Part shown: in pieces, positions 6,016 to 41,656 of the stretch | Layout: each line of letters opens with the position of its first letter | Numbering within the stretch: the stretch's first letter is position 1 | Assembly: GCA_902780235.1 (NCBI GenBank) | Contig: CACZEL010000016.1 | Span: 1 to 42,056, forward strand | Direction: 5' to 3' | Source of the DNA: an uncultured Bacteroidales bacterium | GTDB lineage: Bacteria; Bacteroidota; Bacteroidia; Bacteroidales; Paludibacteraceae | DNA length: 42,056 bases | Program-made: the position numbers and the translations under genes | Notes under the pieces: model-generated | What the model was told of the DNA's origin: nothing | The model's input: only the letters and a program-made list of their open reading frames with translations | Databases searched by the model: none

Positions 6016-6057
6016 GTGAAAAGTGAAAAGTGAAAAGTGAAAGGTGAAAGGTGAAAG
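6016..6057. repeat. Six-unit heptamer array (GTGAAAA/GTGAAAG)
   Basis: Three GTGAAAA units are followed by three GTGAAAG units with exact 7-bp spacing. They fill the spacer between cdd and the permease gene. Confidence 0.95.
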
Positions 6058-6060
6058 GGG

Positions 6061-7551
6061 ATGGCTAAAGTAGTAAAGAGAATAGACATTTATTTGCTCC
6101 GGAATTTTCTGGGGCTGTTTTTGGCTACGTTCTTTATTGCGATCTTTATATTGCTGATGCAGTTCATGTGGATGCACGTGAACGATCTGGTAGGAAAAGG
6201 TATCAGCATCGGCGTACTGGCGGAGTTCTTCATCTATGCCGCTGCATCAGTCGTGCCTTTGGCCTTGCCCTTGGCGATCTTGCTCAGTTCGCTCATCTCG
6301 TTCGGAAACCTTGCGGAGAAATTCGAGTTGACGGCGATGAAAGCGGCGGGTATATCGCTGTTCCGCATCATGCGGCCGTTGGCGTTCTTTGTGATGATGC
6401 TGAGCGTGGGTGCGTTCTTTTTCAGCAATAATATCCTGCCCAAGTCGCAAACCAAACTGTGGGCGCTCATTTTCTCGCTCAGGCAGAAGAGCCCGGAGTT
6501 GCAGATCCCCGTGGGTGAGTTCTACGACGAGATCAGCGGCTACCAGATCTACGTGCGGGACAAGACGCCGCGCGGAGAGTTGCTGAACGTGATGATCTAC
6601 GACTACTCGATGGGTTTTGAGAACGCCAAAGTGATGGTCGCCGATACGGGTCGTCTGGCAGCGAGTGCGGACAAACGCTATCTGACGCTGGATCTGATCA
6701 ACGGCGAGTCGTTTGAGAACCTGAACAAGCAGCAGCAGAAAGCGACGGGTACGACCAAGAGTATCCCGTATCGTCGCGAGACCTTCAGCCACAAGCGGAT
6801 CATCATTGATTTTGCGACGGACTTCAACCGGTACGACGAGTCGATCTTGGAGGATCAGCATGTGAGCAAGAACGTGGTGCAGTTGACGCATTCGATCGAT
6901 TCGGTGCGTCAGGAGTCACGCGAACGATGCGCCGACCAGAGCGACCGAATGATCCATGAGCGCTATTTCGGGCGGGATAACCGACATGATGCGGTGATCC
7001 TGCCGGAACATGTGACGGCTGAAGAGCGGGCACATTATAACATCGATTCGCTCTGGGCATCGATGACCGTGGTGCAGCATCGTCAGGCATTGACCTTGGC
7101 TCAGGAGCGGGCACGTAACTACCGCGATCAGATCGAATACAACGCCATCCTGTTGGAGGACACCGACCGCTATATCCGCAAGCACGAGATCGAACTATAT
7201 CGAAAATTCACCTTGGCTTTTGCTTGCCTTGTGTTCTTCTTTATCGGTGCGCCGCTTGGCGCCATCATCCGTAAGGGTGGTTTGGGTGCTCCGGTCGTGA
7301 TCTCGGTGATCTTGTTTATTATTTATTATATCATCGATAATACGGGCTATAAGATGGCGCGTGAAGCGATTTGGCCGTGTTGGACGGGTATGTGGCTCAG
7401 TTCGTTCGTACTGCTGCCAGTAGGCATTTTCCTGACGTATAAGGCCGCGACGGACTCGCCGCTCTTTAACCCCGAAGCATGGGTGATCGGTTGGAAACGA
7501 TTTGTTTCCAACGTTAAACAGTCAAAATGGTTTCACTATGTGAAACGTTAA
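6061..7551 (+). CDS. LptF/LptG (YjgP/YjgQ) family permease, 496 aa
   Basis: LptF/LptG permeases form the inner-membrane core of the lipopolysaccharide exporter together with the ATPase LptB. The protein starts with the typical [13 protein letters not shown] amphipathic and first membrane segment. Three N-terminal membrane helices follow (about 10-35, 55-80, 100-125). A large periplasmic domain comes next, then three C-terminal helices (from about residue 385: [19 protein letters not shown] onward). The periplasmic part is longer than in proteobacterial homologues, with an added charged helical region (about 260-380), as is common in Bacteroidota. Only one copy is in the window, so I cannot assign it to LptF or LptG. 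ribBA starts 6 bp after its stop, suggesting co-transcription. Confidence 0.92.
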
Positions 7552-7557
7552 ACAGTT

Positions 7558-8829
7558 ATGAAAATCAACACAATAGAAGAAGCATTGGCTGATTTCCGCG
7601 AAGGGAGATTCGTCATTGTCGTGGATGATGAGGATCGCGAGAATGAAGGCGATTTCATCATTGCGGCGGAAAAGATCACGCCGGAGAAAGTCAATTTTAT
7701 GTTACAGCACGGTCGCGGCGTCCTGTGCTGCCCGATCACAGAGCAGCGTTGTGCCGAGTTGGACTTGATGCATCAGGTGGCAAACAACACATCGATGCTG
7801 GGTACGCCGTTCACGGTGACGGTCGATAAACTCGAAGGCTGCACGACCGGTGTCTCGGCGGCTGACCGTGCCGCTACCATTCGCGCCTTGGCAGATCCCA
7901 ACTCCAAGCCCGAGACCTTCGGTCGTCCCGGACATATCAACCCGCTCTATGCGAAGGCAGGTGGAGTACTGCAACGCGCAGGTCATACGGAAGCCGGTGT
8001 CGATCTGGCACGTTTGGCGGGACTGCATCCGGCAGCAGCGCTGATCGAGATCATGAACGAAGACGGCACGATGGCGCGCATGCCGCAGTTGCAAGAAGTA
8101 GCGAAGCAGTTCGACCTCAAGATCATCACGATCAAGGATTTAATCGCCTATCGCTTGGAGAAAGAAAGTCTTTCAGGCGAAGCCGGTCTTTCAGCGAAGC
8201 GGTCTAACAGTGCCAACGGTCTAACAGGCGAAGCCGGTCTTATAGAAAAAGGCGAGACAGTCTTTCTGCCTACGCAGAACGGCGAGTTTATGTTGACACC
8301 TTTCCGTGACCTGACGACAGGTCTGGAGCATGTGGTGCTGACCAAGGGTGAGTGGAAAGAAGACGAGCCCGTGCTTTGTCGGGTGCATTCGAGTTGTATG
8401 ACCGGCGACGTGTTCGGCTCGATGCGTTGCGAATGCGGTGAGCAGTTAACCAAAGCGATGCAGATGATCGAAGCCGAAGGACGCGGCATCATCGTCTATA
8501 TGAATCAGGAAGGACGCGGCATAGGCCTTATGAATAAGATACGCGCGTATAAGTTACAGGAAGAAGGGGATGACACGGTTGAAGCGAACGTGCATCTCGG
8601 TTTTCGTCCCGACGAGCGCGATTATGGGGTAGGCGCACAGATCTTACGGGAGATGGGAGCGCATAAACTGCGCTTGATGACCAATAATCCAGTCAAACGT
8701 GTCGGACTGGAGAGTTACGGCATCGAAATCGTTGAGAATGTGCCGATTGAGATACAGCCGAACCGCTGGAACGAACGTTATATGCGCACCAAAAAGGACA
8801 AAATGCATCACGATCTGAAGCTCGTTTAA
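7558..8829 (+). CDS. ribBA: RibBA: DHBP synthase / GTP cyclohydrolase II, 423 aa
   Basis: The bifunctional enzyme supplies both precursors of riboflavin. The N-terminal RibB domain makes 3,4-dihydroxy-2-butanone 4-phosphate from ribulose 5-phosphate ([11 protein letters not shown] near residues 23-33; RPGHINPL and [13 protein letters not shown] downstream). The C-terminal RibA domain opens GTP: its zinc cysteines are Cys280, Cys291 and Cys293, followed by GRGIGLMNK. The linker (about residues 201-231) is unusual: it contains two copies of GEAGL and is encoded by degenerate 16-18 bp repeats. The gene starts 6 bp after the permease. No FMN riboswitch or other leader space exists upstream, so it appears to be driven from the cdd promoter. 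Confidence 0.97.
8168..8236. repeat. Degenerate 16-18 bp repeat units within the RibBA linker
   Basis: Four units beginning GTCT and ending near GCGAAG(C)CG occupy 8168-8185, 8186-8201, 8202-8218 and 8219-8236. A related pair of units with AGCGAAGCG occurs between genes at 18022-18063. Confidence 0.8.
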
Positions 8830-8834
8830 GGACT

Positions 8835-8850
8835 TTGGCACGGTTTTTGA
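8835..8850 (+). promoter_or_regulatory. Sigma-54-like promoter for the 8912 gene
   Basis: TTGGCACGGTTTTTGA matches the -24/-12 layout (TGGCACG-N4-TTG) except that the usual -12 GC reads GA. It lies about 60 nt upstream of the start. No TAnnTTTG-type promoter in the usual register was seen. Confidence 0.45.
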
Positions 8851-8861
8851 TTCTTTCGTAG

Positions 8862-8890
8862 TAACGTAATAACGTAATTACGTAATAACG
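8862..8890. repeat. Period-8 array (TAACGTAA)
   Basis: TAACGTAA, TAACGTAA, TTACGTAA and a partial fourth unit lie in the leader of the next gene. The unit length differs from the heptamer arrays elsewhere. Confidence 0.85.
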
Positions 8891-8911
8891 AAAATTTTAA
8901 ATTTTACGATT

Positions 8912-10279
8912 ATGAAACGATTAACTACACTTCTGATGACAATGATGCTGATGAGCACCATGTTATGGGCAGACGAGACGATCACGGTTTCTGCCAACAG
9001 TTCCGACATCTCCGAAGGACTCGATCTGAAGGTTGTAGCTAAGCTATTTGCGGAGGCTAAGAACCTTGAGGAGTTCGAGACGATGCTCAACAACCCTGAC
9101 AGTGCGTTCTGTAACCTTGATCTCAACGGCGACGGACAAGTGGATTACTTACGCGTCGTAGAGACCGGCGAAGGAAACAAACGACTCATCGTTCTGCAAG
9201 CTATCCTTGCCAAAGATATCTATCAGGATGTTGCATCGATCTATGTAGAGAAAGATGAATCGACCAACGAGGTCAGCGTTCAGGTGATAGGCGACGAGTA
9301 CGTCTATGGTACGAACTACATCATCGAACCGGTATATGTCTATAGACCCGTTATCTACGATTGGTTCTGGTGCGACGCGTGGTACGCTTGGCATAGTCCT
9401 TGGTACTGGGGGTATTACCCGGGTTGGTGGTACGTACACAGCTGCTGGGCACATGACTGGTACTGGCATCACTGCTACGCTTTCCATCACCATCACCACT
9501 ACTGCTCTTTCCGTCCGGGACATCACATTCATCACGGCTATCACGACATGCATCGTCACGTGAGTCATCGCGACTACGCAGTAGCTCATCCGGAGCGTTC
9601 GTTCGAGCGCCGCAATGCAGGCATGGTGAACGCTCGTGAGATCCGCGGTACCAGCAGCGTACGAGGCACAGCCGTTCGTTCGGCAGCCGCCGCAGGTGGT
9701 AGCAGCCGCGTATCCGCAGCATCCGGGACGCAGAACCTGAATAGTAATCGCACTTTTGGTAGTACCACTACCGCTGCCACACGCAGCACGGGTTCTTCGA
9801 CCCGCGGCACAAGCAGCAGCGTAGCCCGTACACCGAGTACGAACAGTTCAAGCGCTACTACGACTCGTACGTCCAGTTCCTCTGCAACAACGCGTAGCAC
9901 GGGTTCATCAACTCGAAGCACGAGCAGCAGCGTAGCCAGAACGCCGAGTACAAGCAGTTCGAGTGCTTCTACGACTCGCACGTCCAGTTCCTCTGCAACC
10001 ACGCGCAGCACGGGTTCGTCAACCCGCAGCACGAGCAGTAGCGTAGCGAGAACGCCGAGCACGACGACACACACGTCGAGTGGAACGAGTTCTTCCAGAA
10101 CGTCGAGTTCGTCCAGCCGAAGCGGCAGTTATAGCGGAAGTAGCGGAAGTAGCCGAGGTGGCAGTTATGGAGGCAGTTACGGCGGAAGTAGCCGAAGTGG
10201 AGGAAGCAGTTCCTCCGGCGGCAGCCGCGCTCCCTCAGGAGGCGGCAGCCGTGGAGGCGGAGGATCAGTGCGCCGATAA
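8912..10279 (+). CDS. Secreted EF-hand, Trp/His-rich protein with Ser/Thr/Arg repeat tail, 455 aa
   Basis: A signal peptide (about 1-20, ending MLWA-DE) leads into a globular domain found in Bacteroidota secreted proteins of unknown role. It contains LEEFETMLNNPD and a calcium-binding-like DLNGDGQVDYLRV. A strikingly aromatic stretch follows (about 145-210), very rich in Trp, Tyr and His and including HHHHHYC, which suggests metal binding. The C-terminal half is low-complexity Ser/Thr/Arg then Gly/Ser. It includes 37-residue repeats beginning RSTGSSTR, encoded by a 111-bp DNA repeat. A terminator follows. The function is unknown; a cell-surface or periplasmic stress protein is possible. The sigma-54-like promoter hints at regulated expression. 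Confidence 0.85.
   Translation: MKRLTTLLMTMMLMSTMLWADETITVSANSSDISEGLDLKVVAKLFAEAKNLEEFETMLNNPDSAFCNLDLNGDGQVDYLRVVETGEGNKRLIVLQAILAKDIYQDVASIYVEKDESTNEVSVQVIGDEYVYGTNYIIEPVYVYRPVIYDWFWCDAWYAWHSPWYWGYYPGWWYVHSCWAHDWYWHHCYAFHHHHHYCSFRPGHHIHHGYHDMHRHVSHRDYAVAHPERSFERRNAGMVNAREIRGTSSVRGTAVRSAAAAGGSSRVSAASGTQNLNSNRTFGSTTTAATRSTGSSTRGTSSSVARTPSTNSSSATTTRTSSSSATTRSTGSSTRSTSSSVARTPSTSSSSASTTRTSSSSATTRSTGSSTRSTSSSVARTPSTTTHTSSGTSSSRTSSSSSRSGSYSGSSGSSRGGSYGGSYGGSSRSGGSSSSGGSRAPSGGGSRGGGGSVRR
9782..10060. repeat. 111-bp tandem repeat, about 2.5 copies
   Basis: Units start at 9782, 9893 and 10004 with exact 111-bp spacing and only scattered, mostly silent differences. They encode 37-residue repeats in frame. 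Confidence 0.92.
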
Positions 10280-10284
10280 ACAGA

Positions 10285-10314: not shown

Positions 10315-10342
10315 GCTGTTAGCTATTAGCTGTTGGCTTTTA
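10315..10342. repeat. Heptamer array containing the aspA stop codon
   Basis: Units GCTGTTA, GCTATTA, GCTGTTG and GCTTTTA lie in perfect 7-bp register. The last unit supplies the TAA of aspA (10340-10342). Confidence 0.85.
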
Positions 10343-11731
10343 ATGAGCGGCCAGCATATTCGCCGGATCAAGGAGTTGATCTAACTGGTCTTTGCTCAGC
10401 AGCCCGTGTTCCAAGACGAGGTTATAAACGCTCTTGCCGGTCTCAAGGGCTTCCTTGGCGATCTTCGTCGAAGCCTTGTAACCGATAACCGGGTTGAGGG
10501 CGGTGACGATACCGATAGAGTGCTTGACGGTCTCGAGGTTGTGCTCGCGGTTGATGGTGATGCCGTCGATACATTTCTCGCGCAGGATAGCCATGACGTT
10601 ACGCAGCCACGTGATGGACTCGAAGATGCACTCGGTGATGATCGGCTCCATGACGTTGAGCTGCAGCTGACCGGCTTCGGCCGCGAAGGTGACAGCGGTA
10701 TCGTTTCCGATGACCTTGAAGCAAACTTGGTTGGTGACCTCCGGGATGACCGGATTGACCTTACCCGGCATGATCGAACTACCCGGAGCCATCGGCGGCA
10801 GGTTGATCTCGTGCAGACCGCAACGCGGACCGGATGCCATCAGACGCAGGTCGTTACAGGTCTTGCTTAACTTCACCGCCAAACGCTTGAGGGCAGCCGA
10901 ATAGCTGACGTATGCACCGGTGTCCGGTGTCGCTTCGACGAGGTCGCTCGCGAGCGTGAACGGTTCGCCCGTTAACTCGCACATCTTCTTGATACACAGT
11001 TCCGCATAGCCGGCAACGGCATTCAGACCCGTACCGATCGCGGTACCGCCCATGTTGATCTCATAGAGCAGGTTGACGTTTCGACCAAGGTTAGCTACCT
11101 CTTCTTCGAGGTTATTGGCAAACGCATGGAACTCCTGACCGCTTGTCATCGGTACCGCGTCCTGCAACTGCGTACGTCCCATCTTTATGGAGTCGTTGAA
11201 CTCATCTCCTTTCTTACGCAGCGAAGCGATGAGTCGTTGCAGCTCCTCTACCAGCACGCGGTTCATGCGGATGAAGGCATAGCGGAAAGCGGAAGGGTAG
11301 GCATCGTTGGTACTCTGCGCACAGTTGACATGGTCGTTCGGCGAGCAGAACTGATACTCACCGCGTTGGTGACCCATGATCTCCAAAGCACGGTTCGCAA
11401 TGACCTCGTTGGCGTTCATGTTCACCGTCGTACCTGCACCGCCCTGCACCATGTCGGTCGGGAACTGATCGTGCATCTTACCGTCGATGATCTCGCGGCA
11501 GGCTTGTGCGATCGCCGCATAGATCTCATCGTTGATGACGCCTAAGTCATGGTTCGCTTCCACCGCCGCCAACTTGATGTAAGCCAAAGCGATGATGTAC
11601 TCCGGAAAATCGGACATTTTGAGGTTCGATACCTTGTAGTTGTTGATACCGCGTTGGGTTTGTACTCCGTAATACGCGTTTTCAGGCACTTGCAATTCGC
11701 CCAGTAAGTCGGATTCTATTCTGTAATTCAT
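10340..11731 (-). CDS. aspA: Aspartate ammonia-lyase, 463 aa
   Basis: The enzyme interconverts aspartate with fumarate and ammonia. The signature loop GSSIMPGKVNP (about 317-327) and GGAGTTVNMNANEV, together with STNDAYPSAFR, place it in the aspartase/fumarase superfamily. The aspartase-like opening (RIESDLLGELQVP...YYGVQT) and full length favour aspartase over class II fumarase, though the two are close. It is the last gene of a minus-strand run cdsA, acyltransferase, glycosyltransferase, ftsY, aspA, 22 bp after ftsY. No separate promoter of the common type was seen before it. Confidence 0.93.
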   Translation of the reverse strand: MNYRIESDLLGELQVPENAYYGVQTQRGINNYKVSNLKMSDFPEYIIALAYIKLAAVEANHDLGVINDEIYAAIAQACREIIDGKMHDQFPTDMVQGGAGTTVNMNANEVIANRALEIMGHQRGEYQFCSPNDHVNCAQSTNDAYPSAFRYAFIRMNRVLVEELQRLIASLRKKGDEFNDSIKMGRTQLQDAVPMTSGQEFHAFANNLEEEVANLGRNVNLLYEINMGGTAIGTGLNAVAGYAELCIKKMCELTGEPFTLASDLVEATPDTGAYVSYSAALKRLAVKLSKTCNDLRLMASGPRCGLHEINLPPMAPGSSIMPGKVNPVIPEVTNQVCFKVIGNDTAVTFAAEAGQLQLNVMEPIITECIFESITWLRNVMAILREKCIDGITINREHNLETVKHSIGIVTALNPVIGYKASTKIAKEALETGKSVYNLVLEHGLLSKDQLDQLLDPANMLAAH

Positions 11732-11753: not shown

Positions 11754-12716
11754 TCATTCATTGATGGCTCCTAAAAGCGACTTGACAAACTCGACGCGGT
11801 TGAAGCACTGCAAGTCCGTCATTTGTTCGCCCAGACCGATGTAGCGTACAGGGATCTTGAACTGATCGCTGATGCCGATGACCACGCCACCTTTGGCGGT
11901 GCCGTCCAACTTAGTGATGGCGAGCGAACTTACTTGCGTAGCCGCCGTGAACTGACGTGCCTGCTCGAAAGCGTTCTGTCCGGTGGAGCCGTCCAGCACG
12001 AGCATCACGTCATGCGGTGCGTCCGGCACCACTTTCTGCATCACGTTCTTGATCTTGGTCAACTCGTTCATCAGGTTGATCTTGTTATGCAGACGACCCG
12101 CCGTATCGATCAGCACAACATCCGCGTCATTCGCTTTGGCGGACTGTAAGGTGTCGTAGGCGACAGACGCCGGGTCAGAACCTTGTTGCTGCTTGACAAC
12201 CGGCACGCCTACGCGTTCGCCCCAGATACATAACTGCTCTACGGCAGCGGCACGGAAAGTGTCGGCTGCACCGAGGTACACTTTCTTTCCTGCTGCTTTG
12301 TACTGGTAAGCTAACTTGCCGATCGTGGTGGTCTTACCTACTCCGTTGACGCCTACGACCATGACGACGTAGGGTTTGGCGGGCAGCGGTGCACTGAAAT
12401 CGAGTACATCTTCGACATTGTTCTCTTGCAGCAGCGATGCGATCTCATCCACGAGCAGGTTATTCAGTTCGTCCGTACCGATGTACTTATCGCGTTTGAC
12501 GCGTTCCTGCACGCGCTCGATGATGCGCAAGGTCGTCTCGACGCCGACATCCGATGTGATGAGGGCTTCCTCCAAGTTATCCAGCACCTCATCGTCAATG
12601 GTCGATTTGCCGATGATGGCGTGACTGATCTTACTGAGCACCGACTCCTTGGATTTCTCCAATCCTTTGTCCAGTGTCTCTTTCTTCTCTCTGTTAAATA
12701 ATCCAAAAAAGGCCAT
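11754..12716 (-). CDS. ftsY: Signal recognition particle receptor FtsY, 320 aa
   Basis: FtsY is the membrane-associated GTPase that docks the signal recognition particle and its ribosome at the translocon. The NG domain is complete: G1 GVNGVGKTT at residues 122-130, ADTFRAAAVEQL at about 151-162, DTAGR at 204-208, TKLDGTAKGG near 268-277 and a C-terminal GLGEQMTDL. The acidic A domain of the E. coli protein is missing and only a short N-terminal helical segment is present, which is normal for Bacteroidota. It sits between a glycosyltransferase and aspA in the cdsA-led operon. Confidence 0.97.
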   Translation of the reverse strand: MAFFGLFNREKKETLDKGLEKSKESVLSKISHAIIGKSTIDDEVLDNLEEALITSDVGVETTLRIIERVQERVKRDKYIGTDELNNLLVDEIASLLQENNVEDVLDFSAPLPAKPYVVMVVGVNGVGKTTTIGKLAYQYKAAGKKVYLGAADTFRAAAVEQLCIWGERVGVPVVKQQQGSDPASVAYDTLQSAKANDADVVLIDTAGRLHNKINLMNELTKIKNVMQKVVPDAPHDVMLVLDGSTGQNAFEQARQFTAATQVSSLAITKLDGTAKGGVVIGISDQFKIPVRYIGLGEQMTDLQCFNRVEFVKSLLGAINE

Positions 12717-12719
12717 AAT

Positions 12720-12757
12720 TATTTACCATTTAGTCATTTACCATTTTATCATTTATA
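12720..12757. repeat. CATTTA-type short tandem repeat, period 7-8
   Basis: Imperfect units of CATTTAC/CATTTAG/CATTTTAT fill the 32-bp spacer between ftsY and the glycosyltransferase. The array is degenerate compared with the others. Confidence 0.7.
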
Positions 12758-13645
12758 GTTCCTCCGCATTCGGTGGTATTCTCTGCGGGCATCAAAGACG
12801 GCTTTGGCGCTACCTTGTTTGCTGGTAAGGAGGAACATAGCCGCTGCGGCGTAATCCAGGAAGAACCGAAGGCTCAGCACGATCCACGGGAAGCGGCGGT
12901 TCTTGTAGATCATCAGCAGGTTGTTGCGGAAATTGAGGAAGGTCTTGCGCGGGTTGTCATAACTGAGTGAACCGCCTCCCAGATGATAGACCACGCTCTC
13001 AGGTACACACGCTAATTTCCATCCTCTGTTGCGCATGCGCCAGCATAGATCGATCTCTTCCATATGGGCAAAGAACGCTGCATCGAGACCTCCGCACTCC
13101 TTATATACTCGCGTACGCACGCACATCGCCGCACCGGTCGTCCAATCGATCTCAGCGATCGTGTCGTACTGACCGTGGTCTTGCTCTACCTTTCCGAAAC
13201 GGCGTCCCCGACAATAAGGATAGCCGAGCCAGTTCAAGTATCCGCCTGCTGCACCGGCATGCTCGAAACGGTCCCGTTGCCGCCAAGCGCGTATCTTAGG
13301 TTGCACCGCCGCTACTTCGGGATGCGCGTCCATGTAATCGAGTAGGGGAGCCAGCCATCCTTCCGTCACCTCGACATCCGAGTTCAGCAGCACGACGTAC
13401 TCGCTATCCACCTGTTCGATGGCTTTGTTGTATCCTTCCGCAAAACCGTAGTTCTTGTCCAAGACAATAGTCTTGACAGTCGGGAACTCTTTTGCCAGCA
13501 CGTCCAAACTCTCATCCGTACTGCCGTTGTCGGCTACGATGATGTCGGCTATTGGCTTTTGGCTGTTGGCTGTTAGCACCGACGGCAGGTACTTGCGCAG
13601 CATCTGCGCCCCGTTCCAATTTAATATGATGACACTACAATTCAA
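12749..13645 (-). CDS. Family 2 glycosyltransferase, 298 aa
   Basis: The GT-A fold opens with VIILNWNG, then IIVADNGSTDES and the metal-binding region LLNSDVEV (about 89-96). ARG-rich and aromatic segments near MEEIDLCWRMRNRG match rhamnosyl-type GT2 enzymes. A hydrophobic segment near residue 265 suggests membrane association. It probably adds a sugar to a surface polysaccharide or lipopolysaccharide; donor and acceptor are unknown. The only available start is TTG (13643-13645), since a TAA lies two codons upstream, and this start emerges from the AATTCTT heptamer array. Residues around ANSQKPIAD are encoded by another heptamer array (13547-13574). Confidence 0.9.
   Translation of the reverse strand: MNCSVIILNWNGAQMLRKYLPSVLTANSQKPIADIIVADNGSTDESLDVLAKEFPTVKTIVLDKNYGFAEGYNKAIEQVDSEYVVLLNSDVEVTEGWLAPLLDYMDAHPEVAAVQPKIRAWRQRDRFEHAGAAGGYLNWLGYPYCRGRRFGKVEQDHGQYDTIAEIDWTTGAAMCVRTRVYKECGGLDAAFFAHMEEIDLCWRMRNRGWKLACVPESVVYHLGGGSLSYDNPRKTFLNFRNNLLMIYKNRRFPWIVLSLRFFLDYAAAAMFLLTSKQGSAKAVFDARREYHRMRRNYK
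13547..13574. repeat. Heptamer array inside the glycosyltransferase gene
   Basis: Four units, GGCTATT, GGCTTTT, GGCTGTT and GGCTGTT, run in exact register and encode a loop between the first two strands of the GT-A domain. Confidence 0.9.
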
Positions 13646-13678
13646 TTCTTAATTCTTAATTCTTAATTTTTAATTTCT
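13644..13678. repeat. Heptamer array (AATTCTT type) at a gene junction
   Basis: AATTCTT occurs three times, followed by AATTTTT and AATTTCT. The array spans the start of the glycosyltransferase and the stop of the acyltransferase. Confidence 0.92.
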
Positions 13679-14530
13679 TTTCCACTTCCATCTGTTATGT
13701 GTCCAAAGCCATAAATGCGGCTCTGCCAATATATTTGCTTCCAAGTTACGGGCATAGGCGGTCGTGATCTCGCCTTCCGGACTGTTCTTTGGGTCCATGG
13801 ACAGCAGTTCGAATCGCGCCTGATAGTGGCCGCGTTCGGGACGATGAACGGTCAGCGCAAAGACCGGATAACCGAATTTCTTGCCTAACATCTCGCCGCC
13901 GTCCAGGAAGCCCGTTTCCTGATGCAGGAACTCGACCCACGTGCGTGTCACTTCCGGCCTTGGTTTCTGATCCGCTATCAATCCCAATACGATCGGTTTT
14001 TTCTCTGCGCGAAAACGCACCATCTCCCGTAACACACGCTGTTTCTCCACGTACGCTCCGCCACGTTTGGACCGGATGTCCAAGATGAAACGATCCGTGG
14101 ACTCTTTCTTAGCCTTGCGATAAACATTCAGCTCCGTCACCTCCGGCGAGAACCACTGCTGGCAGGACGACATCCATTCCCAGTTACCTACGTGCGCCAA
14201 CATCACGACGCACCCGCCGTAGGTCTTGGCGGCCTGGTCCACCTCTTCTGCGTTGGCAAACACCACGCGTTGCTTGATCTCTTCGTTCGGACATTGATAG
14301 CCGTACAGGGTCTCCGCGAAGGTGTAGCATAACTGATGGTAGAAAGCCCGTTCGATCTGCTTGCGCTCCTCCGCCGTCTTGTCCGGGAACGAGTTACGCA
14401 AGTTCTTCGCTACCACCTTCCGGCGGTATCGCACCACGTAGTACATCAGCGGATACAGGAAATAGTCCGCGAAGGCATAATGGACGCGAAGCGGCAGACG
14501 ACTTAGAGCAGCGGCACAATGAAATAACAT
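13670..14530 (-). CDS. LpxL/HtrB-type lysophospholipid acyltransferase, 286 aa
   Basis: Members transfer a secondary acyl chain to lipid A or related lipids at the inner membrane. The catalytic H-x4-E is visible as His113 and Glu118 in AHVGNWEW, followed by LNVYRKAKKE and a conserved ADQKPRP. The N-terminal helix (about 8-35) would anchor the protein. It starts inside the end of cdsA with a 28-bp overlap, which indicates translational coupling in a lipid-synthesis operon. Bacteroidota carry several related acyltransferases, so the exact acceptor cannot be stated. Confidence 0.92.
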   Translation of the reverse strand: MLFHCAAALSRLPLRVHYAFADYFLYPLMYYVVRYRRKVVAKNLRNSFPDKTAEERKQIERAFYHQLCYTFAETLYGYQCPNEEIKQRVVFANAEEVDQAAKTYGGCVVMLAHVGNWEWMSSCQQWFSPEVTELNVYRKAKKESTDRFILDIRSKRGGAYVEKQRVLREMVRFRAEKKPIVLGLIADQKPRPEVTRTWVEFLHQETGFLDGGEMLGKKFGYPVFALTVHRPERGHYQARFELLSMDPKNSPEGEITTAYARNLEANILAEPHLWLWTHNRWKWKRN

Positions 14531-15818: not shown

Positions 15819-16669
15819 GACGGATCGCGACCATAGGATTCTTCGACGGGGCGCATAAGGGACATCAGTTCCTGTTCGAGCACTTGCGTCAGGAAGCGGA
15901 TCAGCGGGGACTGACGCCGCTTATCGTGACGTTCCGGCAGCACCCGCGCGTGCTGCTGCAGTCCGACTACGTGCCGCAGTTACTGACCACGGCGGAGGAG
16001 CGGCAGGCATTGCTTAGTGCTTACGGCGAGGTGCTGATGTTGCCTTTCGAGGAAATCCAATCCCTTACGGCGGCAGAGTTCATGACCCTGCTGAGGGATC
16101 GTTACGAGGTCTCGGTGCTGCTCATGGGCTACGACCATCGTTTTGGTGCCGACCGTCTCCATCGTCCGCAGGACTACCGCCGTATAGGCGAAACCTTGGG
16201 CATCGAGGTGCTGACGATGAGCGAGTACGTGGAGGGCGAACTACATGTCTCTTCTACGGAGATACGCTTGGCTTTGGAGAACGGGAATATTGCGGTCGCT
16301 AATGAGCTCCTTGGACGACCCTACAGCCTGAGCGGAACGGTCGTACATGGCAAGGCTTTCGGACGCACGATCGGTTTTCCGACAGCGAACATTCAGCCTA
16401 CGGACCCGCATAAGATCATCCCGAAGACCGGGGTTTACATGGCGCGCATGGATACGCCCACGATGGATAACGCGCCTGCTTTCGTCAATATTGATCCGCA
16501 GGGCATCATTGAAGCGCATATCCCATCGTACAAAGGCGACCTGTATGGTCGTCTGATGGAGATTCGTTTCGAACGGTTTATTCGCGATGAGCGCCGTTTT
16601 GATAGTGCTGAGGCACTGCGCAGACAGATCAAGGACGATATTGATAACATCCTGCGTCCGGACGCATAA
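15815..16669 (+). CDS. ribF: Bifunctional riboflavin kinase / FAD synthetase, 284 aa
   Basis: RibF phosphorylates riboflavin to FMN and adenylates FMN to FAD. The N-terminal adenylyltransferase domain has the HxGH motif as HKGH at residues 14-17, inside TIGFFDGAHKGH, and VSSTEIR near 147-153. The C-terminal kinase domain shows GKAFGRTIGFPTANIQP. The length is near 285-310 residues as expected. The start is TTG, overlapping the stop of the upstream gene. No ATG occurs before the HxGH region, and the resulting short N-terminus (MRRIATIGFFDG) fits the family. Its 3' end overlaps the convergent lipoprotein gene by 41 bp. Confidence 0.95.
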   Translation: MRRIATIGFFDGAHKGHQFLFEHLRQEADQRGLTPLIVTFRQHPRVLLQSDYVPQLLTTAEERQALLSAYGEVLMLPFEEIQSLTAAEFMTLLRDRYEVSVLLMGYDHRFGADRLHRPQDYRRIGETLGIEVLTMSEYVEGELHVSSTEIRLALENGNIAVANELLGRPYSLSGTVVHGKAFGRTIGFPTANIQPTDPHKIIPKTGVYMARMDTPTMDNAPAFVNIDPQGIIEAHIPSYKGDLYGRLMEIRFERFIRDERRFDSAEALRRQIKDDIDNILRPDA

Positions 16670-18026: not shown

Positions 18027-18063
18027 CTTTCAGCGTAGCGGTCTTTTTTCTTTTAGCGAAGCG
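18022..18063. repeat. Two units of an AGCGAAGCG-type repeat
   Basis: Units ending AGCGTAGCG (18032-18040) and AGCGAAGCG (18055-18063) are each followed by GTCTTTT. The same motif family makes up the RibBA linker at 8168-8236. The array fills the junction between the lipoprotein and porT genes. Confidence 0.8.
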
Positions 18064-18072
18064 GTCTTTTAT

Positions 18073-18861: not shown

Positions 18862-18881
18862 CTTTCACTTTTCACTTTTCA
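18762..18881. repeat. Three closely spaced heptamer arrays at the porT start
   Basis: TTGAAAA units run 18762-18789. CCTTTCA-type units run 18809-18836 and again 18847-18881. Together they encode the porT N-terminus, provide its GTG starts and form the TGA stop of the upstream receptor gene (18879-18881). Confidence 0.92.
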
Positions 18882-33940: not shown

Positions 33941-35740
33941 TTATCGAATCTGTTGACCTAAAACCGTGTAAATTGTACCGTTACGTTCGATAACAACGCA
34001 ATTACCCCTTATCTCTTTACGGGCTGCGGGTATTGTCGCTTGAGGCGCAATAAGGGCTGTCTCGCCATCTCCATACGGGTCACCGTAACTTTGCGTCATG
34101 GTGGAAAAATCGACTGCATGACCTTGTTGGTCGCCCCAAATATACTCCACTAACTCCGGATAATCGATAAACGGATTGCGGTTTCCCTGAATCTTATTCA
34201 CCTCTATTGCCCGCTGTAACTCTTTCTCGCTCACCGGATCCATTCGATGCCAGGCTACCAACAGATCGCGCAGCCAAGGCTGAAACTCCTGCCAACTTGT
34301 GTTGGTCATAGCCTGTGCTGCTTCACCTGTTGTTTCCCAAGTTAAGGTGTCGCCGTAACAGGTAGCGATATAGAAATACGCACGTGCAAAATCACCCTTG
34401 TACTCGTCTGCCGGACAGAATGCACGAGTCAAACCGTGTATCGTGTCCTGGCCGGTCAAAAATGAACCATTCCAGAACGAACTGTCCGTTGGGATACCCG
34501 GTGCGTGATTCGATTTACTTCTGTTGGCAGATGCATCTCCCGGCACAAGGTGATACAAATCGCAGTACGCTTCATTCACCGTACCTCCCCACCAACTCTT
34601 GGGTAACATATGTTCGATATCAAAACCGCTGACGCTACCGGTAGGATTCTCCGGGTTGAAGAAGCGAACATTATTCGAATACATGTCCAGCACCTCATTC
34701 GTTATTGTATCACGGTCTGTGTAATAGAATGCATCCCATGTCTTGCGTGGACCGCTACCATATTTGTATCGTACGCCGCAGAAGATAATCTCACCCAATT
34801 TGGACTTGAGTACAGAGTCTTGTGTGCCTTGTGCACGCTCGTAATAATCGCTCGGCATAGGACCAATTGCCATACAGGTCGAATCAACGTTAAAAGTAGG
34901 CGGTGTATAGTGATAGCCGGAGATCATGATCGGAATGGTTTTCGTTACGGTCTGTCCGTCTATTCCTTGTCCGCTGATAGACAGTACATCATCTGCTTTA
35001 CCGGTAAAATCCAAACTGTATGCGATATCCACTTCGCCTCCTGCTGATGGCATCGTTGTGCTGCCCAAAGAGAAGACAGTTCCTTTCTGCAAGGACAATT
35101 GTATATCTCCAACCACGTGTTTACCAAGTACCATTAGACTGACTACATCTTCCGACGGCTCGTTGTCCTCTACCGGTACACTGCCAAAATCCACGGCATA
35201 CGGATGCTCGAAAACGGCTGTGTTAGGCAGCGGATCAGGTGCTTCAAACTCAATGCGTTGAACATACCAACGGTTATTGGATGCGGCTTTGGCTGCAATA
35301 GCGATCTCGCTAAGTGTATTATAGATGGATAGCACATACGGACGAATCTCCGCTTTGTGATTCGTCTCCCAAATAAGTTCCTGCCCGCACACATAAATGC
35401 CTTTGCCCGAAGTTGTGTCGTTCTTATGGGAGTATGAAGCCGCATAAACGGTCATCGTACTGATGGTATAGGTGGTGCTCAAATCGATAGTGAGTTCGCC
35501 TTTGGCGGATCCTGTTCCGCCTTTGATACCTCTACCCGAACCGGCATTGTATATATTGTTGGAAAGACTCACGCCTTGAACGCAATTGTCGGTCGAACTA
35601 AGTACGATCTTATTCAAGTCGCTCACTTTAGTGCCGGAGTCACCGCTTCCGTTTCCGCTTTTGAAAACGATGGTGTACGTCTCTGCCATCATACTGACTG
35701 AGCAGAAAAGTACTGCGAAAAGAAGGAGTCTGAATTTCAT
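33941..35740 (-). CDS. Secreted endonuclease I family nuclease, 599 aa
   Basis: A signal peptide (1-19) is followed by a beta-rich N-terminal domain (about 20-165) and an Ig-like domain (about 180-285). The catalytic endonuclease I domain comes next. Its core reads GFDIEHMLPKSWWGG and then DLYHLVPGDASANRSKSNH (about 365-405), the His-based active-site region of the family. The short C-terminal tail (RKEIRGNCVVIERNGTIYTV then GQQIR) matches the tail of the 906-aa protein and suggests export by type IX secretion. It would degrade extracellular nucleic acid for nutrients or biofilm turnover. It is the last gene of the lipoprotein, foldase, permease, pssA run. Confidence 0.88.
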   Translation of the reverse strand: MKFRLLLFAVLFCSVSMMAETYTIVFKSGNGSGDSGTKVSDLNKIVLSSTDNCVQGVSLSNNIYNAGSGRGIKGGTGSAKGELTIDLSTTYTISTMTVYAASYSHKNDTTSGKGIYVCGQELIWETNHKAEIRPYVLSIYNTLSEIAIAAKAASNNRWYVQRIEFEAPDPLPNTAVFEHPYAVDFGSVPVEDNEPSEDVVSLMVLGKHVVGDIQLSLQKGTVFSLGSTTMPSAGGEVDIAYSLDFTGKADDVLSISGQGIDGQTVTKTIPIMISGYHYTPPTFNVDSTCMAIGPMPSDYYERAQGTQDSVLKSKLGEIIFCGVRYKYGSGPRKTWDAFYYTDRDTITNEVLDMYSNNVRFFNPENPTGSVSGFDIEHMLPKSWWGGTVNEAYCDLYHLVPGDASANRSKSNHAPGIPTDSSFWNGSFLTGQDTIHGLTRAFCPADEYKGDFARAYFYIATCYGDTLTWETTGEAAQAMTNTSWQEFQPWLRDLLVAWHRMDPVSEKELQRAIEVNKIQGNRNPFIDYPELVEYIWGDQQGHAVDFSTMTQSYGDPYGDGETALIAPQATIPAARKEIRGNCVVIERNGTIYTVLGQQIR

Positions 35741-35749
35741 GGTAAGATA

Positions 35750-35777
35750 TTAATTATTAATTGTTAATTATTAATTC
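35750..35777. repeat. Heptamer array (TTAATTA) with the pssA stop codon
   Basis: TTAATTA, TTAATTG, TTAATTA and TTAATTC in exact register fill the junction. The pssA stop (35771-35773) lies in the last unit. Confidence 0.92.
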
Positions 35778-36475
35778 TTCTTCCCGCAGGTAAGCAGCAG
35801 ATTCAGCATCACGTACCATAAGATACATCCCGTGCCGCTGAAGAAGGCAAACTCGATATGATGATGAATGATCGCTTTGGCGATGCAATAACCGAGAATG
35901 ATCAGGCATCCTGCTAAAAAACTGATAATCACCACTTTCTCTTTCTTGAAAGCCTTGAAACTGAAGAACGGAATCTCGGCATTCAGCAGGTAGCAACTTA
36001 CCAACGAAAGTCCCAACAAACACCAACCCATCCAGTCGTATGCCAACATCGCGTACGGCATGCAGCAGATACCGCCCCAGAAGATGGCATTCGCCGGAGT
36101 CGCCAAACCGATAAACGAATCGTGCTGACGCTCATCGACATTAAACTTGGCCAGACGAAGCGCTGAAAAAGCGGCCATCAGCAAGGCGATCAATGCCCAC
36201 CAGCCGAGTATCGGACGCAGGTAGCAGAACAGCATCATAGCCGGCGCCAAACCAAACGTAATGTCGTCTGCCAACGAATCCAATTCAATACCTATCGGAC
36301 TTGGCGCTTTCAACAAACGGGCACTCAGTCCGTCAAAGAAATCAAAGAATGCGCCGATCAAAATGAAGATAAACGCCCATAGAAAAGCACCTTGCGTAGC
36401 TAAATAAACCGATATACTGCCGCAAAGCAGGTTGCAACTTGTGATCGCGTCAGGAATAATTCGTTTGCAATTCAT
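35771..36475 (-). CDS. pssA: CDP-diacylglycerol-serine O-phosphatidyltransferase, 234 aa
   Basis: PssA makes phosphatidylserine from CDP-diacylglycerol and serine, the route to phosphatidylethanolamine. The CDP-alcohol phosphotransferase motif is complete: Asp48-Gly49, Ala52-Arg53, Gly62, Asp66 and Asp70. About seven membrane segments are present. The ATG overlaps the stop of the upstream permease by 4 bp (36472-36475). The serine-specific assignment rests on the overall match and length; a psd gene is not in the window. Confidence 0.94.
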   Translation of the reverse strand: MNCKRIIPDAITSCNLLCGSISVYLATQGAFLWAFIFILIGAFFDFFDGLSARLLKAPSPIGIELDSLADDITFGLAPAMMLFCYLRPILGWWALIALLMAAFSALRLAKFNVDERQHDSFIGLATPANAIFWGGICCMPYAMLAYDWMGWCLLGLSLVSCYLLNAEIPFFSFKAFKKEKVVIISFLAGCLIILGYCIAKAIIHHHIEFAFFSGTGCILWYVMLNLLLTCGKKN

Positions 36476-37716
36476 AATTTTCTATATACTAAATAAGTGA
36501 CTATTATCGACGGAACACAACAAGCCATGACAATCCAGAAGAATCCCAGATAGCCTGTCGCTTCTTGGATATATCCGGCTATCGTGCCAGGTAACATCAA
36601 ACCAAGGAACATAAACGCGGTGCAAATCGAAAAATGCGCCGTCTTGTGACTGCCGTCCGCTACACGCATCATATAAAGCATACATGCCGTGTAACCAAGT
36701 CCGTAACCCAACTGCTCGATACCTACGCATAGGCTTAAGATCCAGAATGCAGTTGGCTGATTCTGTGCAAAATAGACATAGACGATGCAGGGTAAGGTCA
36801 AACAAAGCGCCATCGGCAGGATGGCTTTCTTCAAGCCCGTCTTACTGGCCCATATGCCGCCTCCGATACCGCCTAATAGCATCAGCACGACGCCGATACC
36901 CGTGATCTGACCGATCGTGTCCACGCTGATACCCAAACCGCCCTGTTCGCGCGCTGCCAAGAAGAACGGATTGCATAACTTCAACAATAAAGCCTCCGGA
37001 AGTCGGTATAGCAACATAAAACACAACGCCAAGATGATTTCCGGTTTGCGGAAAAACTCCACCCAAACCATCCCGATCTCTCGCCAAATATCTTTCACCT
37101 TTAACCTTTCACTTTTCACCTCTATTGCCGGCATGCTCCATGCGTGCCAAACAGCGATTAGAGCCAAGATGGCGCTGCAAAGGAGTAGGGCATAGGTCCA
37201 CGACGTCGAGATGTCCGTGCGTTTTTGCAACCATCCTACAATCATCAGCAACAGGGACTGACAGAAAATATTCGCAATGCGGTAGAACGTAGAACGCAAA
37301 CCGACATAAGCCGATTGATCGTGTTCGTTCAATGCGATCATATAGTATCCGTCCGCTGCAATGTCATGGGTCGCAGAGCAGAAAGCGGTGATAGTGAATA
37401 AGATAAGCGCAATCGTGAAATGTCCTTGTGGCGCTAACCATGCCAGCAACGCAACCGTCACCGCCATCAGAATTTGCATCGTCAGTACCCACCATCGTTT
37501 GGTGCGCAGCACATCGACGAACGGACTCCACAAAGGTTTGACTACCCACGGAAAAGCAATGAGCGAGGTGAACAATGCCATCTCGCTATTCGGTACACCA
37601 AGTTGCGCAAAAAGCGTTATACTGATGCTTGTAACCAAAAAGTATGGGATACCTTCCGCCAAATAGAGCGTAGGTACCCATACTAATGGTGATATATTCC
37701 TTATATTATTACGCAC
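36472..37716 (-). CDS. AmpG-like MFS permease, 414 aa
   Basis: This is a twelve-helix major facilitator protein whose opening WVPTLYLAEGIPYFLVTS matches AmpG-type muropeptide permeases, which import peptidoglycan fragments for recycling. The AmpG family also includes other carriers, so the substrate is probable only. The cytoplasmic loop between helices 6 and 7 contains VKSERLKVKD, encoded entirely by a heptamer array (37092-37119). It is coupled to pssA by a 4-bp overlap and follows the PpiD-like gene by 10 bp. Confidence 0.85.
   Translation of the reverse strand: MRNNIRNISPLVWVPTLYLAEGIPYFLVTSISITLFAQLGVPNSEMALFTSLIAFPWVVKPLWSPFVDVLRTKRWWVLTMQILMAVTVALLAWLAPQGHFTIALILFTITAFCSATHDIAADGYYMIALNEHDQSAYVGLRSTFYRIANIFCQSLLLMIVGWLQKRTDISTSWTYALLLCSAILALIAVWHAWSMPAIEVKSERLKVKDIWREIGMVWVEFFRKPEIILALCFMLLYRLPEALLLKLCNPFFLAAREQGGLGISVDTIGQITGIGVVLMLLGGIGGGIWASKTGLKKAILPMALCLTLPCIVYVYFAQNQPTAFWILSLCVGIEQLGYGLGYTACMLYMMRVADGSHKTAHFSICTAFMFLGLMLPGTIAGYIQEATGYLGFFWIVMACCVPSIIVTYLVYRKL
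37092..37119. repeat. Heptamer array inside the MFS permease gene
   Basis: CTTTCAC, CTTTAAC, CTTTCAC and TTTTCAC run in register. On the coding strand this is the GTGAAAA/GTGAAAG family also seen at 6016-6057 and 18809-18881. Confidence 0.92.
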
Positions 37717-40610: not shown

Positions 40611-40655
40611 ATGTATATTATTTATGGTTTTCACGTTTTATCTCAAAATAGCGTG

Positions 40656-40686
40656 CAAAGATACGAAAAATATTTCACGCGCGCAA
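40656..40686 (-). promoter_or_regulatory. Promoter of the lipoprotein-foldase-pssA operon
   Basis: TTGCGCGCGTG from 40686 and TATCTTTG at 40663-40656 on the minus strand, with 23-nt register. Confidence 0.72.
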
Positions 40687-40723
40687 ATAAATTAGGAAAA
40701 AATGCAAAAAAAATGCAATTTTC

Positions 40724-40754
40724 TTGCGTATGTCAATTTTTTGTTGTAATTTTG
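40724..40754 (+). promoter_or_regulatory. Promoter of infC-rpmI-rplT
   Basis: TTGCGTATGTC at 40724-40734 and TAATTTTG at 40747-40754, with 23-nt register. The leader to infC is more than 100 nt and contains a heptamer array. Confidence 0.82.
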
Positions 40755-40835
40755 CACGCTTTTTCGATGGTGGGGTATAGTGTGCCCGCACGATTAAGCA
40801 TAGTATTAATCCACGAGAGAAGAAATTCGAGGGCT

Positions 40836-40863
40836 TTTATCTTTCGACTTTTATCTTTCGACT
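40836..40863. repeat. Alternating heptamer array in the infC leader
   Basis: TTTATCT and TTCGACT alternate twice, giving a 14-bp period built of two heptamers, directly before the proposed infC start. Confidence 0.88.
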
Positions 40864-40864
40864 A

Positions 40865-41437
40865 ATTGTTAAAACAATAGCTACTATTCCTCCCAGACCA
40901 CGTGGTGGTCGAGTTATCAAAGAAGATCCGCACCGTATTAACGACAAGATCCGCGGTGTGGCTCAAGTGCGCCTGATCGGCGACAATGTAGAGCAAGGTA
41001 TCTACACGTATCAACAGGCTATGAAAATAGCAGATGACCAGAATCTTGACCTCGTCGAGATCGCTCCTACCGCTACACCGCCTGTCTGCCGCGTTATTGA
41101 CTACCAGAAATTCCTCTACGCGCAGAAAAAGAAACAGAAAGAGGCGAAAGCAAACCAGAAAAAGCAAGAGGTGAAGGAGATCCGGTTCGGTCCGCAGACA
41201 GATGACCACGATTATAACTTCAAGCTCAAGCACGCGATCGAGTTCCTCAAAGAGGGCAACAAAGTGAAAGCATATGTCTTCTTCCGCGGACGCTCTATCG
41301 TCTTCAAAGAGCAGGGCGAACTCCTTCTTGCACGATTTGCTGCCGACCTCGCCGAGTATGGCAAACCCGACAATGTACCGAACCTTGAGGGCAAACGAAT
41401 GATCATGTTCATCAGCCCCAAGAGTAACAAGGGGTAA
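40865..41437 (+). CDS. infC: Translation initiation factor IF-3, non-canonical start
   Basis: IF-3 binds the 30S subunit and proofreads initiator tRNA. Both domains are visible: the N-terminal one with [19 protein letters not shown] and LVEIAP, and the C-terminal one with [21 protein letters not shown] and [12 protein letters not shown]. The first GTG (40958) would remove the essential start of the N-domain ([10 protein letters not shown]). The frame is open upstream to 40781 without ATG, GTG or TTG in a sensible place. ATT at 40865 is proposed; ATA at 40877 and ATT at 40886 are alternatives. AUU-type starts are known for infC in other bacteria, where they allow autoregulation. Confidence 0.9.
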
Positions 41438-41571
41438 TAGTAAATCAGACTAACGAGACACTATCGACAGAGAATCGAGTCGGGGTTATCTCGTGGTCAT
41501 CTCGAGGGTATATCGTATCATACATCACCTTATATATACGTAGTATATATCCCGTGATTTTAAAATAAAGC

Positions 41572-41656
41572 CGTCCGAAGGCTTACCTTTAATTTGTACA
41601 TCGTCCTTTGTACATTGTACATTGTCCTTTGTACATTACCCGCTGCCTATCGGACG
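41572..41656 (+). promoter_or_regulatory. Long stem in the rpmI leader
   Basis: CGTCCGA-AGGC (41572-41582) pairs with GCCT-A-TCGGACG (41645-41656) as an 11-bp stem with one bulged A. It encloses a 62-nt loop and ends 31 nt before the rpmI start. The rest of the 249-bp infC-rpmI gap has only shorter repeats such as TATATACGTAGTATATA. Confidence 0.55.
41594..41635. repeat. Six-unit heptamer array (TTGTACA/TTGTCCT)
   Basis: TTGTACA, TCGTCCT, TTGTACA, TTGTACA, TTGTCCT and TTGTACA in exact register lie inside the loop of the rpmI leader stem. Confidence 0.93.

Follow-up and report, generated by a model that had tools for sequence, protein, structure and literature searches.

The window analyzed here, 42,056 bp of a contig from an uncultured, Paludibacteraceae-type member of the Bacteroidales, carries tandem arrays, mostly of period 7, at gene junctions and within genes. 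On the forward strand, a (GTGAAAA/G)6 array (6014–6058) fills the gap between a deaminase-like gene (5530–6015) and an LptF/G-like permease gene (6061–7551). The following arrays lie on the reverse strand: a weak heptamer array (10315–10342), TAACAGC-like on the gene strand, overlaps the stop codon of an aspA-like gene (10340–11731); the ftsY leader holds an array of 7 + 8 = 15-nt units (AAATGGTAAATGAC; 12716–12756), at a position where several relatives carry other heptamer-type leaders; a GGCTGTT-type array (13547–13574) occupies the 5′ end of a glycosyltransferase-like ORF (12749–13645); and an AATTCTT array (13644–13676) lies between this ORF and a lipid A acyltransferase-like gene (13670–14530). 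They continue with a 14-mer array (AGAGCAAAGAACAA; 17971–18001) at the 5′ end of ORF 16629–18026, four copies of TTGAAAA (18762–18788) at the 5′ end of a PorT/SprT-like ORF (18073–18861), a GTGAAAA/G array (18849–18881) between the latter and a TonB-receptor-like gene (18879–21431), an AATTAAA array (21831–21869) filling the rho–aroQ gap, and a coding 21-mer array (23148–23187) inside rho (21871–23655). Also on the reverse strand, a TTAATTA array (35748–35776) separates a pssA-like gene (35771–36475) from ORF 33941–35740, and a GTGAAAG array (37092–37121) inside an AmpG-like transporter gene (36472–37716) encodes EVKSERLKVK. Two arrays were given no strand, the 14-mer CTTTTATCTTTCGA in 2.1 copies (40834–40863) and a 21-mer of degenerate TTGTACA heptamers (41594–41637) upstream of an ORF at 41687, which we take to be ribosomal protein L35.

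A scan of the window for periods 1–30 at a score of at least 16 returned ten arrays (five of period 7, two of 14, two of 21 and one of 13), nine of them thus with period 7, 14 or 21; the same scan returned zero arrays in 20 simulated windows. With head-to-tail copies beyond chance (of 5–11-nt units in the original definition), the arrays qualify as heptanucleotide SSR/LSSR in the sense of Mrazek, and a TRF run agreed with the dominance of period 7. Over the whole window, 11 lag-7 segments reached a score of at least 9, against a mean of 0.17 expected from 100 Markov simulations; at this score lags 4–6 and 8–13 gave 0–2 segments each and lag 14 gave nine. The initial annotation had reported heptamer arrays at 11 places, counted here as 12 because 18762–18881 comprises two; a lag-7 segment with a score of at least 9 was present in 10 of the 12, confirming that these arrays are real and that period 7 dominates. 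Below the cut were the weak array at 10315–10342 (lag-7 score 6, lag-7 identity 0.76) and that at 40836–40863, whose true unit is a 14-mer (lag-7 identity 0.57), while the array at 41594–41635 proved to be a 21-mer built of degenerate heptamers with a lag-7 core at 41608–41625. The first 5.3 kb, described as free of arrays, was so for period 7 at the cut used, but contains a period-13 array of 4.1 copies (3922–3974).

In a 442-kb sample of the 2.28-Mb genome to which the window belongs, 50 of 79 arrays were 7-class and 38 had a period of exactly 7. Seven was the commonest unit length, again in the sense of Mrazek, with six arrays of period 8, one of period 9 and none of periods 5 and 6, so that the excess of 7 over its neighbours, on which the initial annotation had staked its reading, was borne out. 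The window together with 80 loci of relatives yielded 144 arrays, 58 of period 7 exactly and 79 in the 7-class, and five sampled genomes held 37–113 7-class arrays per Mb. Grouped by FtsY identity, there were 75.8 such arrays per Mb at 93% or above (38 loci), 52.0 at 86–92% (21 loci), 7.6 at 83–85% (7 loci) and 5.4 at 78–80% (14 loci). Other Bacteroidales families contributed a single period-7 array in 260 kb, and 50 kb of E. coli K-12 contained zero arrays. Within the sequences examined, the trait is therefore confined to one clade of gut and rumen bacteria, with a sharp onset. An assembly artefact is an unlikely source, because the arrays occur in MAGs of different projects (RUG, RGIG, UBA and metaWRAP sets, by their titles). 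Weak two-copy repeats peaked at 7 (114 vs. 1.8 expected) and also at 11 (56 vs. 0.8 expected), indicating that 7 is not the sole preferred step; in the intergenic lag autocorrelation, lags 7, 14, and 21 were raised, and lag 8 equally with 7, but 16 and 24 were not. The constancy of the period across the clade, with units that vary, supports the original proposal of a shared generating mechanism that favours steps of 7 nt.

The units were not each unique to one array, as had been stated. In the window, GTGAAA(A/G) occurs at three loci (6016, 18849, and 37092), AATT(C/T)TT at two (13644 and 21836), and related GGCTNTT/GCTNTTA units at two (10315 and 13547). More generally, a few unit families, a “dialect”, recur at unrelated loci of each genome and differ among genomes. 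Identical units were found in 138 of 2048 array pairs within genomes vs. 38 of 6337 between genomes, and the earlier exclusion of a copied element is not supported; for units within one mismatch, the observed value of 0.190 was reached in 0 of 2000 label permutations (maximum 0.111). In three exact copies, GTGAATT was found in 24 of 178 genomes (57 matches in genome G259, 20 in G286, and 0 in the window's own) and GGTGAAA in 54 of 178 (7 matches in the own genome and 0 in G259 and G286), overlapping matches included, so that one long array counts several times. The 150-bp flanks were alike in only 8 of the 138 same-unit pairs within genomes, and judged by their flanks the arrays are therefore not a conventional mobile element of the IS, MITE, or REP kind, which has sequence in common beyond the array. 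Outside arrays of the own genome, GGTGAAA occurred 30 times vs. 36 expected, and single copies of neither GGTGAAA nor AGTCGAA exceeded expectation. Such an absence of excess, together with the same units at unrelated loci, requires either that arrays are to some extent copied from one another or that some other factor specific to the genome is at work. Other dialect words were over-represented outside arrays (observed/expected: ATGAGTT 107/61 in G014; GATTATT 166/117 and GCATCGT 61/46 in G016; AAATTAA 265/212 in G000; GTGAATT 52/39 in G286), which could reflect decayed arrays or word bias.

Orthologous sites revealed how the arrays change. In the rho–aroQ gap, relative G290 has the same unit as the window's genome, in one 7-bp copy fewer, and other relatives have different material; among close relatives, G256 and G290 differ from each other; 7-bp copy-number differences also separated L017 from L022 and L170 from L176. 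Two units appear to have had local seeds: AGATTAT, upstream of ftsY in L032, runs on from the end of the preceding gene, and GAAGATT of L167 equals the aroQ start in the array-less L190. In the AmpG loop, the five closest orthologues alter or lose the unit with length unchanged. In the window's RibBA-type protein (7558–8829), the counterpart of the coding arrays of L007, L018, L021, and L022 lies by alignment in the middle, a region taken to be the linker of two enzyme domains, and an assignment of several relatives' coding arrays to the AmpG loop was accordingly rejected. Among 85 non-coding indels from 41 close-relative pairs (179 kb aligned), a small survey with few close pairs and some events counted in several of them, there was no peak at 7 bp: four indels were 7 bp, eight were 5 bp and six were 8 bp, and two of the four 7-bp indels were clean array events. 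Polymerase slippage, one of the mechanisms first suggested, thus has some direct support from the copy-number differences and from the units matching flanking gene ends, but none from the indel spectrum. In 85 arrays of at least 35 bp, exact identity was 0.294 for adjacent units vs. a within-array shuffle mean of 0.347, and 0.400 for units two apart; adjacent units being less alike than in the shuffle, multi-unit steps or another process would be needed.

Our preferred reading, held tentatively and with confidence a little short of even, combines 7-nt-biased duplication or slippage at tolerant sites with copying between arrays of one genome. A strongly 7-nt-biased duplication or slippage would make short heptanucleotide arrays in one Paludibacteraceae-type clade, and these would persist where the DNA tolerates them, in operon gaps, leaders, protein linkers, and loops. 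Existing arrays may then be copied into other tolerant sites of their own genome via template switching or gap filling, and such copying would be the source of each species' few-unit dialect; the arrays themselves would have no specific function. Confidence is lowered because the indel survey lacked a peak at 7. Several observations also sit badly with this reading: adjacent units were not the most alike, contrary to the prediction of single-unit slippage, the AmpG unit changed without a change in length, other steps (11; lag 8) were favoured too, and some dialect words were over-represented outside arrays. No donor–recipient copying event between arrays was caught among the sequences compared.

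Replication slippage acting only in place, with a preference for 7 nt and zero copying between loci, as in the polymerase-footprint idea (Mrazek, 2007), accords with the local seeds (L032, L167/L190) and the 7-bp copy-number differences and has a standing in the literature, as far as the excerpts of PMC4679880 and PMC4692102 convey it. We nevertheless regard it as unlikely, given that each genome reuses units of its own at unrelated loci, without an excess of GGTGAAA or AGTCGAA outside own-genome arrays, and given that adjacent units were not the most alike and that the indel survey had no 7-bp peak. It is likewise doubtful that heptamer arrays are written in a genome-specific manner in this clade, preformed ones being placed in trans at tolerant sites, whether by synthesis or by copying, so as to overwrite older ones and give each species its few words at many unrelated loci; if true, this would amount to a self-spreading minimal repeat without a transposase or conserved sequence.

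The location of the arrays bears on a possible function. They were enriched outside genes: of 201 arrays, 110 lay outside ORFs, where intergenic DNA totalled 229 kb, and 59 lay well inside them, with 79 in 145 kb of operonic gaps, 17 in 33 kb of convergent gaps and 14 in 51 kb of divergent gaps. Among the 79 operonic arrays, 35 overlapped the upstream stop codon and 51 overlapped the called start of the following ORF or lay no more than 10 nt from it, matching the placement of TAACTGA repeats before start codons or over upstream stops. This concentration at operon gaps and leaders, the presence of arrays at the same junction in several relatives, and the post-transcriptional role that MacGregor proposed for TAACTGA repeats (in the excerpts of PMC4679880) would suit selected regulatory elements, either leaders for translation initiation or tandem sites bound by an RNA- or DNA-binding protein that differs from genome to genome. 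We consider this quite improbable: close relatives have different units at the same junction, arrays are also found well inside coding sequence, where they often form an insertion in the protein, and arrays per kb in convergent gaps were about as many as in operonic gaps, with fewer in divergent gaps.

A preferred step, genome-specific words, and multi-copy arrays at unrelated sites would also be produced by a templated enzyme, reverse transcriptase- or telomerase-like, that adds heptamers at breaks from a template differing by species. Such an enzyme appears very unlikely, however, as RVT_1, detected in 13 of 41 genomes, was not found in the array-bearing G014 and G016 (98% complete), Y1_Tnp, detected in 24 of 41, was not found in the window's genome, and a genome with several words would require several templates. 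Of the three enzyme families searched, the presence of neither reverse transcriptase nor Y1 transposase tracks the trait, and both were rejected as generator; a Y-family polymerase, present in 34 of 41 genomes and not clade-specific, was rejected too. The least probable reading is a three-frame stop barrier, 7 not being a multiple of 3 and a stop-bearing unit thus closing all frames after a gene: stops in all three coding-strand frames occurred in 55 of 79 operonic arrays (vs. 38.5% of tiled random operonic heptamers) and in 27 of the 44 of them that lie after the stop codon, but stop-less arrays are absorbed into the downstream ORF call, and once this ascertainment is counted by adding 22 arrays at ORF 5′ ends, the bias vanishes, with 55 of 101 on the coding strand vs. 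44 of 101 on the other and therefore no clear strand preference.

The STRR heptamers of heterocystous cyanobacteria resemble the present arrays by description, being heptamer tandem repeats with several units per genome. The initial annotation knew of no named description, yet a bacterial excess of heptanucleotide repeats is already in print: the excerpts of PMC4679880 and PMC4692102, both relaying Mrazek (2007), report period 7 as the commonest in most genomes and suggest slippage over a 7-nt polymerase contact, and intergenic bias, stop-codon overlap, and polymerase-footprint slippage are published there. The present arrays share the period-7 excess of those LSSRs but, by comparison with these excerpts, the excess here is characteristic of a single clade, where it sets in sharply, and the units form vocabularies specific to each genome. 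MacGregor (2015; PMC4679880, in part) described TAACTGA direct repeats in Beggiatoaceae, some cyanobacteria, and five Bacteroidetes including Paludibacter propionicigenes; like the arrays here they are short, lie before start codons or over upstream stops and also inside some ORFs, and are accompanied by other heptamers in three Bacteroidetes. In that excerpt, however, a single unit predominates, with few related heptamers, whereas here many units occur at a constant period, and two-copy TAACTGA in any rotation or strand was absent from 442 kb of the own genome.

According to the excerpt of PMC4692102, which also mentions three tandem heptanucleotides in Calothrix PCC 7601, GGGAATC and GGGGA(T/C)T repeats of Xanthomonas and Nostoc are likewise dispersed at gene junctions and vary in length and sequence at the same junctions, but they form G-quadruplexes, whereas units here are mostly A+T-rich and several per genome; four G3 tracts on one strand were found in 0 of 50 own-genome 7-class arrays, setting these apart from G4-forming heptamers of the GGGNATC type. 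Archaeal Borg repeats (PMC9879509, in part) are similar in being fast-turning arrays in gaps and ORFs, with flanking partial repeats taken as seeds, and in adding disordered peptide. Each Borg locus, as described there, has a unit of its own, repeated perfectly and, where it lies in an ORF, a multiple of three in length; here, period 7 is frequent in coding arrays as well, and the same unit turns up at more than one locus. The phase-variable heptanucleotide tract of HMW1A in Haemophilus influenzae also consists of tandem 7-bp repeats at a gene, but is, in the excerpt of PMC8262952, a switch at one gene family, as opposed to the many housekeeping loci here. A search of the literature found no published tandem-repeat work on Paludibacteraceae, and neither clade-wide heptamer density with genome-specific dialects nor the exchange of one unit for another at a given junction or protein loop was found in the literature searched.

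The heptamer excess dates to the 2007 report, and its mechanism is still treated as a hypothesis in the excerpt of PMC4679880 that cites it. Plain copying slips do not explain why each species sampled draws mostly on a few heptamer words of its own at numerous unrelated sites. With its sharp onset, a single preferred period, freely changing units, and 178 genomes, the clade offers a natural experiment for separating the slippage step from copying between arrays, and it illustrates how new insertions in proteins and new spacers between genes can originate.

The genome that contains the window comprised 2.28 Mb in 58 contigs and was 78.6% complete. MAGs with Paludibacteraceae or uncultured Bacteroidales in the title made up most of its nearest named records by FtsY (98 to 78% identity; best 80 of 571 matches), and many came from rumen and gut; the Paludibacteraceae species Candidatus Colicola faecequi had an FtsY 90% identical. 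In the window, array-adjoining genes were housekeeping genes (LptF/G-like, RibBA, AspA-like, FtsY, RibF, PorT/SprT, AroQ, Rho, PssA and AmpG-like), named by best family match, in some cases scoring under the curated cut-off. An accessory block at 1181–5328, likely a defence island, encoded a GmrSD_N/HNH nuclease, an EcoRI-type adenine methylase and a Schlafen AlbA_2 protein, with a perfect 13-mer array (3922–3974) within the Schlafen-like ORF. A 455-aa ORF at 8912–10279, without NCBIfam or Pfam match, carried a 111-nt (37-residue) tandem repeat.

Period 7 was dominant among window arrays, in line with the initial annotation, with TRF, a period-neutral lag score and a lag-7 scan with simulations in agreement. 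Ten of the twelve heptamer arrays it had listed passed the lag-7 cut; that at 10315–10342 was weak and that at 40836–40863 was a 14-mer. Its view that every array is distinct in sequence failed already within the window, where GTGAAA(A/G) occurred at 6016, 18849 and 37092. Of 69 arrays in 400 kb drawn from 20 further contigs of the genome, 33 had a period of exactly 7. With the window included (442 kb), this was true of 38 of 79 arrays, and 50 of 79 had periods of 7, 14, 21 or 28 nt (7-class), i.e., 113 per Mb.

The 7-class density was 37–81 per Mb in four other species of the genus (G007, G014, G016, and G286), and a fifth, G004, had one period-7 and one period-14 array in the 33 kb sampled. 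Nineteen stretches from other Bacteroidales families (260 kb) held four arrays, one of period 7, and 50 kb scanned of E. coli K-12 contained none. Across the 80 named FtsY loci, density was 75.8 and 52.0 per Mb down to 86% FtsY identity but 7.6 and 5.4 per Mb from 85% downwards (68 arrays in 1.01 Mb vs. 2 in 0.32 Mb).

Other units were also present. A 15-nt unit (AAATGGTAAATGACC-like, equal to 7+8) was found at window 12716–12756, listed with L084, L087, L088, L093, and L096 for recurring non-7 units, and at five further places in the own-genome sample; an 11-nt unit (AGTAGGTGATT-like) occurred at three. Recurring words thus exist also at periods other than 7. Weak two-copy repeats in 203 kb of intergenic DNA (121 genus sequences) peaked at 7, 14, and 21, and also at 11 and 22, and the overall autocorrelation of genus intergenic DNA was raised at lag 8, without 16 or 24. 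Longer repeats with AGCGAAGCGGTCTTT-like sequence lay at 8168–8241, in the RibBA-type linker, and at 18025–18074; similar 23–24-mers in relatives (L119, L120, L173, and L187) perhaps form a second dispersed repeat family.

Placement was analyzed for 201 7-class arrays from five genomes and 59 FtsY loci, using mechanically called ORFs of ≥120 codons. Gaps held 79 operonic, 17 convergent and 14 divergent arrays; 59 were deep inside ORFs, 22 at 5′ ends (which may be leaders) and one at a 3′ end, with nine unassignable. Operonic gaps with an array had a median of 53 bp, of which a median 68% was array, and 35 of the 79 arrays overlapped the upstream stop codon. In the own-genome sample, 10 of 77 operonic gaps of 15–100 bp carried an array.

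Coding arrays are often insertions. Array-bearing proteins were longer than array-less homologues (>60% identity) in 138 of 189 comparisons, equal in 20 and shorter in 31, although these are non-independent, 37 being of the one size (11 residues) found in a gene common to L020 and L029. Different genomes carried different units at one and the same position of the RibBA-type linker, and likewise of a second protein loop (L014, L029, and L140). By contrast, the AmpG array region showed no gap in the five closest orthologues (74–89% DNA identity), with GGTGAAA in G256, GTTGAAA in G290 and no array units in two; eight more distant homologues among the matches listed had gaps of 1–7 residues. A single GGTTAAA unit, leaving one frame readable (peptide like GERLKVKGE), recurred in coding GGTGAAA arrays of different genes: window 37092–37121, L020 2059–2089, L029 5181–5211, L022 14611–14641, and L082 6972–7003.

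Each sampled genome used mostly its own dialect, a small set of heptamers recurring at unrelated loci. Among 130 of 133 arrays (three fitted a 7-nt consensus poorly), identical units made up 138 of 2048 within-genome vs. 38 of 6337 between-genome pairs; only eight of the 138 had alike flanks, and with one mismatch allowed, the observed value was reached in none of 2000 permutations. Three exact copies of GTGAATT occurred in 24 of 178 genus genomes (overlapping matches: G259, 57; G260, 26; G156, 23; G286, 20) and of GGTGAAA in 54 (G240 and G285, 32 each; own genome, 7; G259 and G286, 0), vs. 1 and 14 for the backward-read control words; G156 and G260 had both. The close genomes G256 and G290 preferred different units in BLAST tallies, which include the orthologous match: at least 27 and 9, respectively, with the AmpG query (mostly to GTGAAAG), and at least 5 and 35 with 13000–14530 (mostly to AATTCTT). 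Outside arrays, GGTGAAA (30 found vs. 36 expected) and AGTCGAA (31 vs. 41) were not raised in the own genome; ATGAGTT in G014 (107 vs. 61), GATTATT (166 vs. 117) and GCATCGT (61 vs. 46) in G016, AAATTAA in G000 (265 vs. 212) and GTGAATT in G286 (52 vs. 39) were.

Orthologous sites varied. At rho–aroQ, compared with the 29 best-matching other genomes, the own genome shared an AATTAAA array with G290, differing by one 7-bp unit; the remainder had ATTGATA, GAAGATT, GGTGAAA, 8-mers, longer repeats, hairpin-like spacers or nearly no gap. At ftsY, L008 and L009 carried AAATCTC vs. AATTCTC with 98% identical flanks. At a different junction, L020 and L029 were unlike in both unit and length. Two sites had arrays in L032 and none in L033; at ftsY in L032, the unit continued the end of the upstream gene. 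When 41 pairs of related stretches were compared, 7 bp did not stand out among indel lengths, accounting for 4 of 85 non-coding indels.

Heptamer arrays as such are a known kind. Passages of PMC4679880 and PMC4692102 describe the heptanucleotide excess in bacteria and 7-nt polymerase idea of Mrazek (2007), intergenic placement, stop-codon overlap, stops in all three frames, and arrays that vary at a given junction; clade-bound density combined with genome-specific vocabularies at constant period was not found among the literature matches listed. A local 7-nt step accounts for the birth of arrays from flanking sequence and for changes in copy number, but not by itself for units found at unrelated loci within a genome and missing from other genomes; a polymerase property would be expected clade-wide. 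Simple single-unit slippage is disfavored because units two apart were more alike than adjacent ones. As candidate generators, RVT_1, Y1_Tnp and Y-family polymerase were rejected, their distributions across 41 genomes not following the trait. The shared units would take the fewest additions to explain if arrays within a genome were copied from one another through template switching or gap filling; no copying event was caught, so we infer this step. If true, copying between arrays predicts rich-get-richer dialects.
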